From Nitrospira sp. (GTDB lineage: Bacteria; Nitrospirota; Nitrospiria; Nitrospirales; UBA8639): DNA of 64,000 nucleotides. Position 1 is the first letter of the stretch. Every line of letters begins with the position of its first letter. A program made the translations under genes and the position numbers. The notes beneath the pieces were generated by a model that worked only from the letters and a program-made list of their open reading frames with translations, ran no database searches and was not told the origin of the DNA. Positions 29,289 through 38,200 of this stretch are shown here, in pieces. The stretch covers positions 62,001-126,000 of the forward strand of contig WTGX01000001.1 of the NCBI GenBank assembly GCA_011523385.1, in the 5' to 3' direction.

Positions 29289-29318
29289 TTGAGATTAGAT
29301 CGGTTGCCTGATTATAGT
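29289..29318 (+). promoter_or_regulatory. Candidate promoter before the ThyX-like gene
   Basis: TTGAGA (29289-29294) and TATAGT (29313-29318) are 18 bp apart. If real, transcription starts near 29325, and the ThyX-like protein would begin at the downstream GTG 29359 rather than at GTG 29317, which lies inside the -10 element. Confidence 0.4.
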
Positions 29319-30852
29319 GAGTGGCAGGCGGCATGAAGCCGTAGAGCCGAAGAAGAACGTGACCGACGAGCAGAAAAACAAACGCCGGGTGATCGTCCTT
29401 GCGCCGATGCCGCCCGAGAAAGCGGCCTATGCCCTGGCCCGGTACAGCCGTTCCCCGGATTCCATTGAAGACAGCTTGCGGTGGGTCCACGGGCACTCGT
29501 CCGAGAAGTTTTGGGAGCAGTTCTATTTTGCCTACGGGCATGCCTCGATCGCCGATCTGGGGCACGTGACCGTGTGCCTGGAAGGCATTTCCGAACTGGC
29601 GGCCATTCGTCTGGAAGATGAACCGTTGTGGGATGGACAGGCCAAGTCCAGCCGGTATCAGAACTTTGCCGTGTCCGGCTGTTACGTGCCGTCCACCATC
29701 CAGGATTCCGAACCCGAGGCGTTTTATCGCGGGATTCTCGGCAGCCTGTTCAATCTTTATCGCACGTTTCATGATCCCCTGCTGGAACATCTGGAACGGC
29801 ATTATCCCAGACCCGATGGCATGAGCGAGGCGAATTACGGCCGAACTTTGGCCGCGCGCGTGTACGATATTACCCGGTACCTGCTGCCCCTGGCCTCGAC
29901 GACGAACGTCGGGGAGGTGGTCAGTATCCGGACGCTGGAAAAACAAATCACCCGGTTCTTGTCGACGCAACTACCCGAACTCCAGGCCCTTGGCGAGGAG
30001 TTGCAGGAAGCCTGCGCCAAACCTCCTTCCAATGTGTGGGGAGAATTGGACGGAGAGACCGGCAAACCTGCGGAACCGCTGGCCCCGACGTTGGCTCGCC
30101 ACGCCAAGGCCAACGAGTACCAAACGGAGGTCTACCGGGATCTGTCCAGGCACGCCAAGAAGATCTTTCGCAAGGGGGGCTTGGATCAGCCGTCGGCCTG
30201 GGCCGGTCAAACGGTGCCGGTTGATCTCATCGAGCCGCATTCGCTGATGGACGAACTGGTCACGAGCGTGTTGTATCGCGTCAGCCAGGCGCCGTATCGC
30301 CGCATTCTGGAATTGGTGCGGGAATGGCCGGAGAAGGAAAAGCAGGAAACCCTTGAAGTGGCCTTACGCCATCGCGGGCCCTATGACGAATCGATCAAGG
30401 AGTTTCGATGCGGTTACCCCCTCATCTTCGACGTATTGATGGACATCGGCGGGTGGCGGGACCTCCACCGGCATCGACGGTGCCAGCAGATCCAACAGAA
30501 CTTTACCACCGTGCACGGTTATGAGACCCCGCCCCCGTTGTATGAGGCCAACCTGGACGGGGAATATCAAATGGCCATGGACGCGGTTCAACAGGATATC
30601 GAACGGTTGAGGGGCATGGATCAGGAAGCCTCGATCTACGCGATTCCCTTCGGGTTCAGGGTCCGGTGCGTCTTTAAAATGGACTATGCCCAGGCAGACT
30701 ATATGTGTCAGCTCCGGTCGGGAGTCAAAGGCCATTGGTCCTACCGCACGGTGGCCTGGGAAATGAAGAAACAAATCATGAAACAGTATCCTCATCTGGG
30801 CGGATTGATTGCCGCCACTCCGCCCGACGTCGAGGATACGCTGACGCGATGA
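29317..30852 (+). CDS. Double-length ThyX-like protein (FAD-dependent thymidylate synthase family)
   Basis: 511 residues, about twice a normal ThyX (220-270), apparently two ThyX folds in tandem. The first has FAYGHASIADLGHVTVCLEG and, where ThyX has its signature, a sequence ending AKSSRYQNF: the SxRY end is kept but the RHR start is missing. The second has DLHRHRRCQQIQQNF: RHR is kept but the catalytic Ser is absent. ThyX makes dTMP from dUMP with FAD, NADPH and methylene-THF, its active site being formed between subunits, so the two half-sites may complement each other. GTG 29317 is the longest start; GTG 29359 is plausible given the promoter. It could be the cell's thymidylate synthase or a paralogue with another job. 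Confidence 0.75.
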   Translation: MSGRRHEAVEPKKNVTDEQKNKRRVIVLAPMPPEKAAYALARYSRSPDSIEDSLRWVHGHSSEKFWEQFYFAYGHASIADLGHVTVCLEGISELAAIRLEDEPLWDGQAKSSRYQNFAVSGCYVPSTIQDSEPEAFYRGILGSLFNLYRTFHDPLLEHLERHYPRPDGMSEANYGRTLAARVYDITRYLLPLASTTNVGEVVSIRTLEKQITRFLSTQLPELQALGEELQEACAKPPSNVWGELDGETGKPAEPLAPTLARHAKANEYQTEVYRDLSRHAKKIFRKGGLDQPSAWAGQTVPVDLIEPHSLMDELVTSVLYRVSQAPYRRILELVREWPEKEKQETLEVALRHRGPYDESIKEFRCGYPLIFDVLMDIGGWRDLHRHRRCQQIQQNFTTVHGYETPPPLYEANLDGEYQMAMDAVQQDIERLRGMDQEASIYAIPFGFRVRCVFKMDYAQADYMCQLRSGVKGHWSYRTVAWEMKKQIMKQYPHLGGLIAATPPDVEDTLTR

Positions 30853-31025: not shown

Positions 31026-32096
31026 ATGAGGGATTCCTGTCGTGATGCGAGCGATGAACGCGGGCCACGCATGAGCAAAGAACAGATCATCGAACAGGCC
31101 GTCCTCAGAGGGGATTGGGACGTGGTGCGCGACGCCGCAACGCACTGGTCGCAGGGTGAGACTGCCGGCCCAAGGGCGTTTTTTGCCTTGAACGTCGTGT
31201 ATCTGTTGAAGGGTGAGTTTGCCCTCGCGTGGAAGATGTACGCGAAGTCGTTACAGGAGGAGGCGGATATTGCGAACGTTCGCGAATGGGTTGATCGCCT
31301 GAGCAGGACGTATCCGGAAGAAGGCTTTGTGCATCTGATGCACGGGATGTTTCTGGCGCAATCCGGTCAATCGGAGCAATCGATCACCAGTTACCAAAAG
31401 GCAATCGAATTGGCCCCGGACTCGCCCTTTCCCCATTTTTTTCTGGCTCAGATTTATCAACGGATGGCCCAAACGGATAAGGCCATCAAGGCCTATCGCC
31501 AAGCCGTCAAATTGGATCCGGCCTATTTGGCCGCTCGGTTGAACCTGGGCGCGGCGTATCAGGAACACGGCCAGTTGGAAATGGCCATTCCCCAGTACCG
31601 GGAACTGATCAAACTCGCGCCCGGGGATGCCTTGGGTTACGTGAATCTGGCTTGCGCGTTGGCCGAACAGGGAAAGATCGACGCGGCCATTCGTGAATAT
31701 AAAACCGCGGTGCAGCTCAATCCTGAAGACTTTGAGGTGCACTATGCGCTGGCCGGGGTCTATGAACAAAAAGGGCGGCGTGACCTCGCCCTGCGGGAAT
31801 ATCAGGAAGCCTTGCGCATCAAGCCGGACTTCGGCCCGGCGGCAACGGAAATCGGATGGATGCTACTGGACAAGGGCCAGGTCGATGCGGCGCTCGATAG
31901 TTTCAGCGTGGCCATCAAGGCCGATCCCAACGACGCGCGGGCGACGTTTGGCGTGGGGCGAGTCTACGACCTCAAACGCAAACCCGAGATTGCGGGGGAT
32001 CATTATCAGCAAGCCTTGCAACTGGAAAAAGATCCTGCCAAGAAAACCGCCATCCTGAATTTCATCGACAAGATCGTAGGCGGCTATCACGACTGA
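31026..32096 (+). CDS. TPR-repeat protein
   Basis: A soluble protein of 356 residues made of about eight tetratricopeptide repeats from residue 80 onward (for example AITSYQKAIELAPDSPFPHF, AIKAYRQAVKLDPAYLAARL). TPRs form a superhelical protein-binding scaffold, and no catalytic domain is present. The partner is unknown. ATG 31026 is favoured by GGGGAGG ten bases upstream, which belongs to the adjacent repeat element; ATG 31071 (MSKEQIIEQ) looks better as a protein start but has a weak SD. It lies 78 bp before the zinc-ribbon coiled-coil gene on the same strand. Confidence 0.85.
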   Translation: MRDSCRDASDERGPRMSKEQIIEQAVLRGDWDVVRDAATHWSQGETAGPRAFFALNVVYLLKGEFALAWKMYAKSLQEEADIANVREWVDRLSRTYPEEGFVHLMHGMFLAQSGQSEQSITSYQKAIELAPDSPFPHFFLAQIYQRMAQTDKAIKAYRQAVKLDPAYLAARLNLGAAYQEHGQLEMAIPQYRELIKLAPGDALGYVNLACALAEQGKIDAAIREYKTAVQLNPEDFEVHYALAGVYEQKGRRDLALREYQEALRIKPDFGPAATEIGWMLLDKGQVDAALDSFSVAIKADPNDARATFGVGRVYDLKRKPEIAGDHYQQALQLEKDPAKKTAILNFIDKIVGGYHD

Positions 32097-34666: not shown

Positions 34667-37600
34667 CTACGAACACCCCGTAGTTTCACCGCAGTTTCTG
34701 CAAACCAGGCACATCCCGTTGCGGACTAATTTGAACTGTTTGCAATTGGGGCAGGGGTCGCCTTCAAACCCTTTCTGAAACGCCGTCTCTATCTCAGCGG
34801 CATAAGTCAGGGTTTCCCGTTTTAGCTCGATTTTGTGTGCGACTTTTCCATTTCCCTGGCCGTTTCCATTCCCAACGTCCCCTTGAATGCGTTGCCGCGC
34901 GGGAAACAATTCCGGATTGATGGCTGTCGTCGTGATGGTCCTGGGATCGGCCGGTTCATCATCCGTGCATTCGGGATCCTGTTTGACGGAATCCCCGCGC
35001 AGGTCATCCTGGTTGACCTGTGCGAGTTCTTTCTTATCCAGATAGGTAATGGCCAATTCACGGAAGATGTAGTCGATGATCGAGGTCGACATTTTGATCT
35101 GGTCATTGAGGTTGACCGGACCGTTGGGTTCGAAGCGGGTGAACAGGAAGGCCTCGACGAATTCTTCGAGCGGCACGCCGTGCTGGAGGCCTAAAGAAAT
35201 GGCGATGGCAAAACAGTTCATGAGGCTGCGAAATGCCGCCCCTTCCTTGTGCATGTCGAGAAAGATTTCTCCGAGCGTTCCATCCTCGTATTCACCGGTG
35301 CGGAGATAGATTTTGTGACCGCCGATCATGGCCTTTTGCGTATACCCCCCGCGTCGTGAGGGAAGCGGACGGCGTTTGGCGAGATACCGGACCAGGACCC
35401 GTTCCGTCACCTGCTGGGCCGCCTTCATGACGTCGTCATGACGTTCGGATTTTTCGGTCGGGTCCGTCGAGGCGTTCAAGGGTTGGCTCAGTTTGGACCC
35501 GTCCCGGTATAAAGCCACGGCCTTGAGCATCTGCTGCCATCCCATGAGGTACGCGTCTTCCGCGTCTCTGACGGTGGAATCCGAAGGCATGTTGATGGTC
35601 TTGCTGATGGCTCCACTGATGAACGGCTGGGCCGCGGCCATCATCCGGATGTGTGCCTGCGTGGAAATGAACCGTTTTCCGATGCGACCGCACCGGTTGG
35701 CGCAGTCGAAAATTGGAAGATGTTCGTCTTTGAGGTGGGGTGCCTTTTCCACCGTCATGGTCCCGCAGCAAAAATCATTGGCCGCGAGAATTTCTTCCTG
35801 GGTAAAGCCCAACGCATTGAGAATCGTGAACTGGGGATCGTTGAGTTGGTCGTCGGAGAAGCCGAGGACGTTCCGACAGAACTCCTCCCCCAACGTCCAT
35901 TTATTAAAGGCGAATTGAATTTCAAAGACCTCATCCAACGTCGCTTCCAGGCGATCAAGCACTTCCGGGGTAAACCCCTTGGCGCGGAGCGATTCGTGAT
36001 TCAAGAACGGAGCCTGTTTCAGGGTTCGGGTGCCCGTGGCATAAGTGATGATGTCGAGGATCTGCTCCTGGGAATAGCCCAGTCCCTTTAACGCCGGGGG
36101 CAGGCTTTGATTAATGATCTTGAAGTAACCGCCGCCGGCCAGTTTCTTGAATTTGACGAGCGCAAAGTCGGGCTCGATTCCCGTGGTATCACAGTCCATG
36201 ACCAATCCGATGGTGCCCGTGGGGGCGATTACCGTGGCCTGCGCGTTCCTGAAACCGTGGGCTTCACCCAATTCGATGGCGTGGTCCCAGGTCTCCTGCG
36301 CGGCCTGTGCCAGTGCTGCGGGAGCGGAAGCCTGGTCAATGCCGTTCGGCGTAATCGTCAGGCCTTCATAGTCGTCAGGTTTGGCCTGATAGGCCGCCCT
36401 TCGATGGTTTCGCATGATCCGCAGCATCGGCTCGCGGTTTTTCGCAAACCCGGGGAATGGGCCGAGTTCTGCCGCCATTTCCGCTGAAGTGGCATAGGCT
36501 TCGCCGGTCAGGATCGACGTCAGGGCGCCGCAGATCGCCAATGCCTCGGGAGAATCGTAGGCAATGCCCTTTCGCATGAGCAGGGATCCGAGGTTGGCAT
36601 AGCCCAGCCCCAACGTTCGAAAGTGAAAACTCTTCTCGGCAATGGGCCTGCTCGGGAATCCGGCCATGAGCACGCTGATTTCCAGGACGATCGTCCAGAG
36701 CCTGATGGCGTGTCGATACGCCGGGATGTCGAATTCACCGTCCGGCGTCATGAAGGCGCCCAGGTTCAGAGACGCCAGGTTGCACGCGGTATCATCCAGG
36801 AACATGTATTCGCTGCACGGATTGGAGGCGTTGATGCGCCCGTCCTCCGGGCACGTATGCCATTCATTGATCGTGGTATCGTATTGAATGCCCGGGTCGG
36901 CACACATCCAGGCCGCCCAACAGATGCGATCCCACAGATCCTTGGCTTTGAGCGTTTTGGCCACGGCTCCGTCTGTCCGGCGGGTGAGTTGCCACTCGCC
37001 GTCTTGCCGTAGCGCATCAAAAAATCCGTTGGGCACTCGAATGCTGTTGTTGGAGTTTTGCCCGGACACCGTTTGGTAGGCTTTGCTGTCCCAATTCGTA
37101 TCATATTCATGAAACATGAAATGGGTATAGCCTTCCTGGGCATAGGCAAAGACCCGTTGGATATAGGCCTCAGGCACGTTGGCCTGCCGAGCCGAGCGGA
37201 TGGCTTCCTTGAGCGGACGGTTGCGTTCGGGGTTGAGTTCAACCGTATCCGGATCATCGCCATTCTTTTGATGACAGGCTTTCAGGATGGCGTTCAACTG
37301 ACCGGCGCAGACCTTGGATCCGGTCACCATAGCGGCTACCTTCTGTTCTTCGATCACCTTCCAGTCGATGAACTCTTCGATATCGGGATGGTCCAGGTCC
37401 AGACACACCATTTTGGCGGCCCGCCGGGTGGTGCCGCCAGATTTGATCGCGCCCGCCGCCCGGTCTCCGATCCGGAGGAAGGACATCAGCCCGGAAGATT
37501 TTCCTCCGCCCGACAACGGCTCGTTTTCTCCTCTGAGCCTGGAAAAGTTGGTTCCGGTGCCCGACCCGTATTTGAACAAGCGGGCCTCGCGGACCCACAA

Positions 37601-38200
37601 GTCCATAATTCCCCCATCGTTGACGAGGTCGTCATCCACGGATTGGATGAAGCAGGCGTGGACTTGGGGGCGTTCGTAGGCGTTTTGGGACAGATTCAGT
37701 TTTTGGGTCTGGGGATCGACGAAAAAATGACCTTGCGAGGGACCGCTGATGCCGTAGGCATAATGCAGGCCCGTATTGAACCATTGCGGTGAATTGGGGG
37801 CCGCCATTTGTTTGGCCAGCATGTAACACAGCTCGGCATAAAAGGCCCGGGCGTCCTGCTCCGTGTCGAAATACCCATAGGTTTCGCCCCACTGCGTCCA
37901 GCAACCCGCCAAGCGATGAAACACCTGCCGGGCGTCACGCTCGCCGCCCGTGACCGGGTTTCCTTGCTCATCCTTGATGGGCTGGCCATCGGCATCGACC
38001 TGCGGCACTCCAGCTTTCCGGAAATACTTTTGGGCCAGAATGTCTACGGCCAGTTGAGACCACTGGTCCGGGACCTGAATGTCATCGAGCTGAAATACAA
38101 TGGAGCCGTCCGGATTTCTGATTTCCGAAGACCGGGTGGAAAACGGAATACCTTGGTATGGAGACTCTTCGGCTTGGGTGAAACGGCGTTCGATTTTCAC
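34667..38200 (-). CDS. nrdJ: Adenosylcobalamin-dependent (class II) ribonucleotide reductase
   Basis: Reduces ribonucleotides to deoxyribonucleotides with B12 in place of a tyrosyl radical and works with or without O2. The 1177 residues include the active-site N-C-E motif in [21 protein letters not shown], the redox cysteine region, [22 protein letters not shown], and a C-terminal extension with zinc-like knuckles [21 protein letters not shown]. It begins after a 400-bp AT-rich upstream region with NrdR- and DnaA-like sites. No classes I or III genes are in the window. The adenosylcobalamin requirement implies B12 synthesis or uptake by the cell. Confidence 0.96.

Follow-up and report, generated by a model that had tools for sequence, protein, structure and literature searches.

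A tandem ThyX protein of Nitrospirales with the conserved active-site residues divided between two fused Thy1 domains

A two-domain ThyX gene and its residue map

The window, by which we mean the whole stretch of 64,000 nucleotides of Nitrospira sp. DNA that was analysed, carries on its forward strand an open reading frame (29317-30852) that starts with GTG and encodes 511 amino acids comprising two Thy1/ThyX domains. The N-termini of orthologues align near residue 15 of this frame, and the in-frame GTG at 29359, 14 codons into the ORF, may therefore be the true start. Pfam detects Thy1 (PF02511) twice in the ORF, with a summed score of 87.6 bits; taken alone, the first and second halves score 38.8 and 52.5 bits, respectively, against a gathering cut-off of 24.8. 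The thyX equivalog model of NCBIfam, TIGR02170, gives 23.4 bits, below its curated cut-off of 87.9, so that a tandem ThyX may escape routine annotation.

The gene directly downstream (31026-32096, forward strand) encodes a TPR-repeat protein. In 75 of 80 Nitrospirales loci, a TPR gene follows the tandem thyX at a short distance, and a same-strand match is found in 76 of the 80. Further along, a large ORF on the reverse strand (34667-38200) resembles, by eye, a class II (vitamin B12) ribonucleotide reductase. A link between such a reductase and the tandem thyX is unsupported, a ribonucleotide reductase gene being present in the examined flank of 0 of 80 related loci.

The residue register of both halves was fixed by hhalign against 31 single ThyX sequences (L143-L172 and L083; a selection for the full motif was applied, and none of the 31 was dropped), which returned a probability of 98.9 for each half. 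MAFFT places a gap that shifts the RHR arginine in half 2 of the Nitrospirales proteins, and the register was taken from hhalign and from an alignment, A4, of 50 sequences that comprises 34 proteins of the Nitrospirales type, the window protein among them, and 16 viral-contig proteins, with 20-96% identity to the window protein. Canonical residue numbers are those of T. maritima ThyX (TM0449), anchored on motif spacing. The features are as follows, with fractions giving the number of A4 sequences that have the canonical residue at the position in question.

29317..30852, forward strand: tandem ThyX gene, 511 aa (497 aa from the probable start at 29359)
29317..30066, forward strand: half 1, Thy1 domain, residues 1-250; supplies the S30-, H53-, T55-, S88-, R90-, Y91-, R147- and R165-type residues
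29452..29454, forward strand: S46, S30 equivalent, flavin contact (49/50)
29539..29547, forward strand: H75-A-S77, equivalent to H53-x-T/S55, flavin/folate side (H 47/50, S 50/50)
29617..29625, forward strand: D101-E102-P103, the lost RHR of half 1 (0/50, 0/50, 2/50)
29647..29658, forward strand: S111-S-R113-Y114, equivalent to S88-x-R90-Y91, substrate recognition loop (50/50 at all three)
29875..29877, forward strand: R187, equivalent to R147, nucleotide contact (50/50)
29929..29931, forward strand: R205, R165 equivalent, FAD contact (45/50)
30067..30849, forward strand: half 2, Thy1 domain, residues 251-511; supplies R78-H79-R80 and R174
30469..30477, forward strand: R385-H386-R387, equivalent to R78-H79-R80 (50/50 at all three)
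30499..30510, forward strand: N395-F-T397-T398, the lost SxRY of half 2 (0/50 for the S88, R90 and Y91 residues)
30715..30717, forward strand: R467, equivalent to R174, which activates dUMP (50/50)

All of the dUMP-site residues R78, S88, R90, R147 and R174 are present in the protein, divided between its halves. We take T55, E58, N163 and R165, with their neighbours, to be the FAD-contact residues of ThyX. The T55-, E58- and R165-type contacts are kept in half 1, and N163 is replaced in both halves in Nitrospirales, by S203 in half 1 and D456 in half 2. The position of Q75 is occupied by R98 and D382, respectively. The initial annotation had counted a loss of FAD contacts from both halves among the findings that would speak against its reading; equivalents of S30, H53, T/S55 and R165, on the flavin/folate side, are retained in half 1.

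AlphaFold2, run on a single chain with the A4 alignment, produced a model with a pLDDT of 87.8 and a pTM of 0.86, which supersedes a weak model obtained with orthologues only (pLDDT 68.2). Half 1 superimposes on ThyX chains of the PDB, the best being 3gwc (VIA Z 12.1, rmsd 2.9, 198 aligned). Fold searches with the full model yielded ThyX matches at half 1 only, and the fold of half 2 is assigned from its hhalign probability. Compared with the BFVD model of the ThyX of Microcystis phage LMM01, the full model has TM values of 0.74/0.77 over 503 columns; both models thus show a like arrangement of the two domains, although they are partly dependent on each other, since close relatives of the LMM01 protein were included in A4.

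Conservation and distribution of the divided site

ThyX is a tetramer with active sites located between chains. Published structures of the ThyX family allow residues to be assigned to the subunits that contribute them. In crystal structures of PolB, F79, R82 and H83 come from one monomer and E94', S96', A97', R98' and R166' from its neighbour, whereas R86 and R193 are unprimed, that is, located on the same chain as F79, R82 and H83 (PMC5003785). Judging by constant numbering offsets, PolB R86, S96, R98, R166 and R193 would correspond to ThyX R78, S88, R90, R147 and R174. In a viral ThyX with a bound inhibitor, Gln75 and Arg182 are provided by monomer A, and Ser88 and Gln89 by monomer B (PMC3498832). 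Named catalytic roles are given for Ser88, Tyr91, Arg90 and R174 (PMC8316439); R78 faces flavin N1, and H53 is contributed by a third monomer (PMC11940539). The residues retained in the tandem protein divide along this subunit boundary, so that the two halves resemble the subunits that jointly form a single composite site. The initial annotation had proposed that a fused pair might rebuild a single site, and it is this coincidence with the boundary that lends the proposal support.

In an alignment of 56 sequences (A1: the window protein and 55 of 80 loci), the mapped site residues are invariant or nearly so. The more divergent A4 alignment retains only 17 invariant columns, S44, R45, S77, E89, S111, R113, Y114, R187, L190, P191, R385, H386, R387, P405, Y441, L466 and R467. 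At the positions of S88, R90, Y91 and R147, the canonical residue is present in 50 of 50 first halves each, and in 0, 0, 0 and 1 of the second halves, respectively. Conversely, R78, H79 and R80 are found in every second half and in 0, 0 and 2 of the 50 first halves. The division is sharp for these seven residues and blurred for R174, which is present in all 50 second halves and also in 35 first halves, namely in 34/34 Nitrospirales proteins, where it is R213, and in 1/16 viral ones. In Nitrospirales, both halves thus probably retain the residue, and there is no clean split at this position. H53 is conserved in 47/50 first halves as opposed to 7/50 second halves, and N163 in 12/50 and 5/50, respectively. 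Within Nitrospirales, the segment E100-D101-E102 of half 1 is invariant in A1.

A scan of 140 tandem rows (96 from Nitrospirales, with the window protein counted twice, 17 of the type II described below, 11 from phages or plasmids and 16 from viral contigs, with many near-copies among them) revealed RHRx7S in none, whereas SxR[YF] in the first part combined with RH(N)R in the second occurred in 140/140; part of the viral-contig rows had been found by seed patterns containing SxRY and is therefore not independent for half 1. Together with the alignment register, this bears out the initial observation that neither half has an intact RHRx7S, the first keeping SxRY only and the second RHR only. 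Chance alone would partition four linked blocks (SxRY, R147, RHR and R174) in this manner about 1 time in 8, which is weak statistically, and the case consequently rests on the invariance of the live site and the loss of the dead one across proteins of about 20-30% identity. Decay or a frameshift of a normal thyX as the origin of this pattern is rejected on account of the open frame and of the presence of this form in almost every sampled member of the order.

In a draw of 198 genomes from the phylum, the tandem gene is present in 55 of 56 members of the order; the exception, G040, is considered below. Thy1 is matched in 54 of 59 relatives, nearly always by two matches in one frame, with a single match in G020 and G045 and, in G035, two that lie on separate contigs. 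Locus L187, from the same class but not from the order, contains a frame of 560 amino acids with about 25-27% identity to the window protein, and the split is present there. Two loci titled Nitrospinota (L012 and L015) contain a gene of the Nitrospirales type at 73-76% identity, reflecting either mislabelled bins or gene transfer.

Nine plasmid and sixteen phage records outside the order are related to the window protein. In eleven of these 25 (L193-L203), the first part contains SxR[YF] and the second RH(N)R, with RHRx7S found nowhere (11/11), and sixteen proteins translated from viral contigs display the same split. The plasmid and phage proteins with the split share 20-34% identity with the window protein; the plasmid relatives are annotated as 'FAD-dependent thymidylate synthase', and in the type found on Bacillus/Paenibacillus plasmids and phages (L195, L197, L198 and L231-L241) RHNR replaces RHR in half 2. 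Of the further scans of viral contigs, that with the A1 query gave 0 confirmed stretches out of 82, that with a Tunturi_5 query found none and that with a BONAISHI query gave 0 of 2 confirmed. Other families of the phylum contain a second, more ThyX-like tandem family, type II, of 17 proteins (L173-L186 and L188-L190), in which half 1 has SEQVSQRY and R147 and half 2 a QDQRHR-type motif and R174, in 17/17 at the positions counted. In all, the split is present in 18/18 tandem loci L173-L190. As judged from these sequences, the tandem split-site ThyX is a widespread class and not a peculiarity of the window gene.

A tree was calculated from 10 single ThyX rows and 70 halves (80 rows in all); its long branches make the topology unsafe. 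First halves of the window type and of its phage and plasmid relatives form one group with a support of 99, and the corresponding second halves lie on one side of a branch with a support of 91. When type II is included, all second halves lie on one side of a branch with a support of 95.8, but the equivalent value for all first halves is only 27, and a topology constrained to unite both type II halves is not rejected (p-AU 0.33). The tree suits a single ancient fusion and subsequent complementary loss; in view of the long branches and of the p-AU value for type II, there may instead have been two fusions.

Thymidylate supply in the genome and the order

The genome from which the window derives (2.5 Mb in 38 contigs, with a computed completeness of 100%) was searched for other sources of thymidylate. 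Its sole Thy1 matches fall in ORF 29317-30852, one in each half, and no match to ThyA, thymidine kinase or DHFR was found, while control genomes were positive for each. Absence of DHFR is usual in organisms that only have ThyX. Across the order, ThyA scored above the cut-off in 0 of 146 genomes, with one sub-threshold match of 19.1 bits. The initial annotation had asked whether thyA or a normal thyX exists elsewhere in the genome, which would have spoken against a rebuilt site; these searches gave no ThyA above the cut-off and no second ThyX, and hence no hidden normal synthase, with thymidine kinase and DHFR likewise lacking a match. A tdk gene is normally present in bacteria that have neither ThyA nor ThyX (PMC1971073). 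With no ThyA, other ThyX, DHFR or thymidine kinase detected, the tandem ThyX is very probably the working thymidylate synthase of this genome.

Two kinds of exception were noted in related genomes. G040, a member of the same order that is 99% complete, has no Thy1 match, no tandem thyX and no listed ThyA, which points to either an assembly gap or another route to thymidylate. In three genomes (G203, G195 and G023), a single ThyX with an intact motif (L191, L192 and L083, respectively) accompanies the tandem gene; these single genes may be phage-borne or contamination. A third Thy1 match is otherwise not encountered: G023 is the only case among the 59 relatives, and G195 and G203 are the only ones among the 55 matching order members of the phylum draw.

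Proposed enzyme and relation to known systems

The protein would be a flavin-dependent thymidylate synthase made of a fused ThyX duplicate that acts as an obligate pseudo-heterodimer and rebuilds one site, a reading to which we assign a probability of roughly 0.85. The domains, the division of residues and its conservation, and the lack of another detectable synthase are shown by the analysis; the chemistry, stoichiometry and assembly are inferred as follows. Half 1 would form one neighbour of the substrate site, contributing the S88/R90/Y91 loop, R147, H53 and T/S55, and half 2 the other, with R78-H79-R80 holding FAD and the nucleotide and R174 activating dUMP. Each fused chain would thus offer one set of site residues, the second, pseudo-symmetric site being dead, and the composite site could be formed within or between fused chains. 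H53 is contributed by a third monomer in ThyX and is found chiefly in half 1 here. The third contributor should accordingly be half 1 of another fused chain, so that completing each site probably takes two such chains, and the likely assembly would be their dimer, containing two sites versus four in the homotetramer. The reaction is expected to be that of ThyX, converting dUMP and methylene-tetrahydrofolate, with FAD and NADPH, to dTMP. A new reaction, the other option raised in the initial annotation, is conceivable but not needed to account for the data; the protein appears to be a variant of a known enzyme.

A change of substrate or product nevertheless deserves consideration. The protein might use flavin to methylate or hydroxymethylate a different nucleotide, with dTMP made by an undetected route, and there is a precedent in the family, PolB, which prefers UMP and illustrates that ThyX-family enzymes are able to change substrate (PMC5003785). 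The pocket of the tandem protein also differs from that of canonical ThyX (Q75 to D/R, E86 to A and N163 to S/D). We consider this unlikely given that the residues to which named functions in dUMP methylation are ascribed are invariant, that the genome has no detected ThyA, second ThyX or thymidine kinase and that the gene is near-universal in the order, as would be expected for a housekeeping enzyme. Somewhat less probable still is that both pseudo-equivalent sites work, the second by means of substitute residues, the fusion then being a tethered tetramer. Such a second site would have an arginine at the R174 position, which both Nitrospirales halves possess, and might make use of the acidic E100-D101-E102 that is invariant in the order, but it would lack R78, H79, R80, S88, R90, Y91 and R147, and its residues vary among tandem lineages, unlike those of the first.

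The least probable alternative, to which we attach very little weight, is that the halves are decaying or structural pseudoenzymes in an organism that obtains thymidylate by uptake or through an unknown enzyme. The low scores of the window protein against ThyX models and the few related genomes that also have an intact single ThyX (L083, L191 and L192) could be read in this way. Decay would not, however, be expected to leave frames open and site residues invariant throughout an alignment of 56 sequences; the genome has no thymidine kinase, and a third Thy1 match is rare. A more speculative elaboration, doubtful but less so than any of these alternatives, is that tandem ThyX represents an ancient, unrecognised class, perhaps arising from two independent fusions of the same polarity, whose dead site was kept for a different function, for instance the sensing of a nucleotide, of folate or of the flavin state. 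Such a ThyX would combine a catalytic with a regulatory site, and the E100-D101-E102 of Nitrospirales would be the trace of the latter.

If the composite-site reading is correct, nearly all sampled members of the Nitrospira order rely on a synthase whose active site is shared out over two complementary half-enzymes fused in one chain, a design also found in phages and plasmids. The fused chain would allow the contribution of each ThyX subunit to be mutated separately, which the homotetramer does not. It would also explain why annotation by motif or cut-off can overlook the sole thymidylate synthase that such genomes possess, a point of relevance to lists of essential genes and drug targets.

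With ThyX as defined by PF02511, TIGR02170 and TM0449, the tandem protein shares that both halves are Thy1 domains, that the named catalytic and dUMP-binding residues are jointly present and that the genomic context, devoid of ThyA and DHFR, fits a ThyX-only organism. It differs in having two domains per chain, no RHRx7S, probably one site per two domains and a score far below the TIGR02170 cut-off. The protein is therefore inside the Thy1 superfamily and outside canonical single-domain ThyX, as it fails both the contiguous motif and the equivalog cut-off. Type II tandem ThyX has the same polarity as the window protein and a very different sequence. A named counterpart is the 'thymidylate synthase' of Microcystis phage LMM01 (PHROG 36506, 491 aa), a full-length tandem homologue matched with 116.9 bits over residues 35-492. 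It has STRY in half 1, RHR in half 2 and the same predicted two-domain shape, but is a phage gene product with about 28% identity to the window protein. Its annotation as thymidylate synthase makes no mention of the split, nor does the available part of PMC9927357, which deals with a relative of the LMM01 protein, and a literature search covering few subscription journals returned no published account of ThyX in tandem form or with a divided site. The protein family is already annotated as thymidylate synthase, and the split-site form would be an unrecognised variant.

An analogy from an unrelated enzyme and fold is provided by the monomeric dUTPase of herpesviruses, in which a duplicated subunit within one chain forms a single site from motifs that the homotrimer distributes over several chains (PMC8961515). 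The tandem ThyX would be a comparable natural case of an oligomer that has become a pseudo-oligomer.
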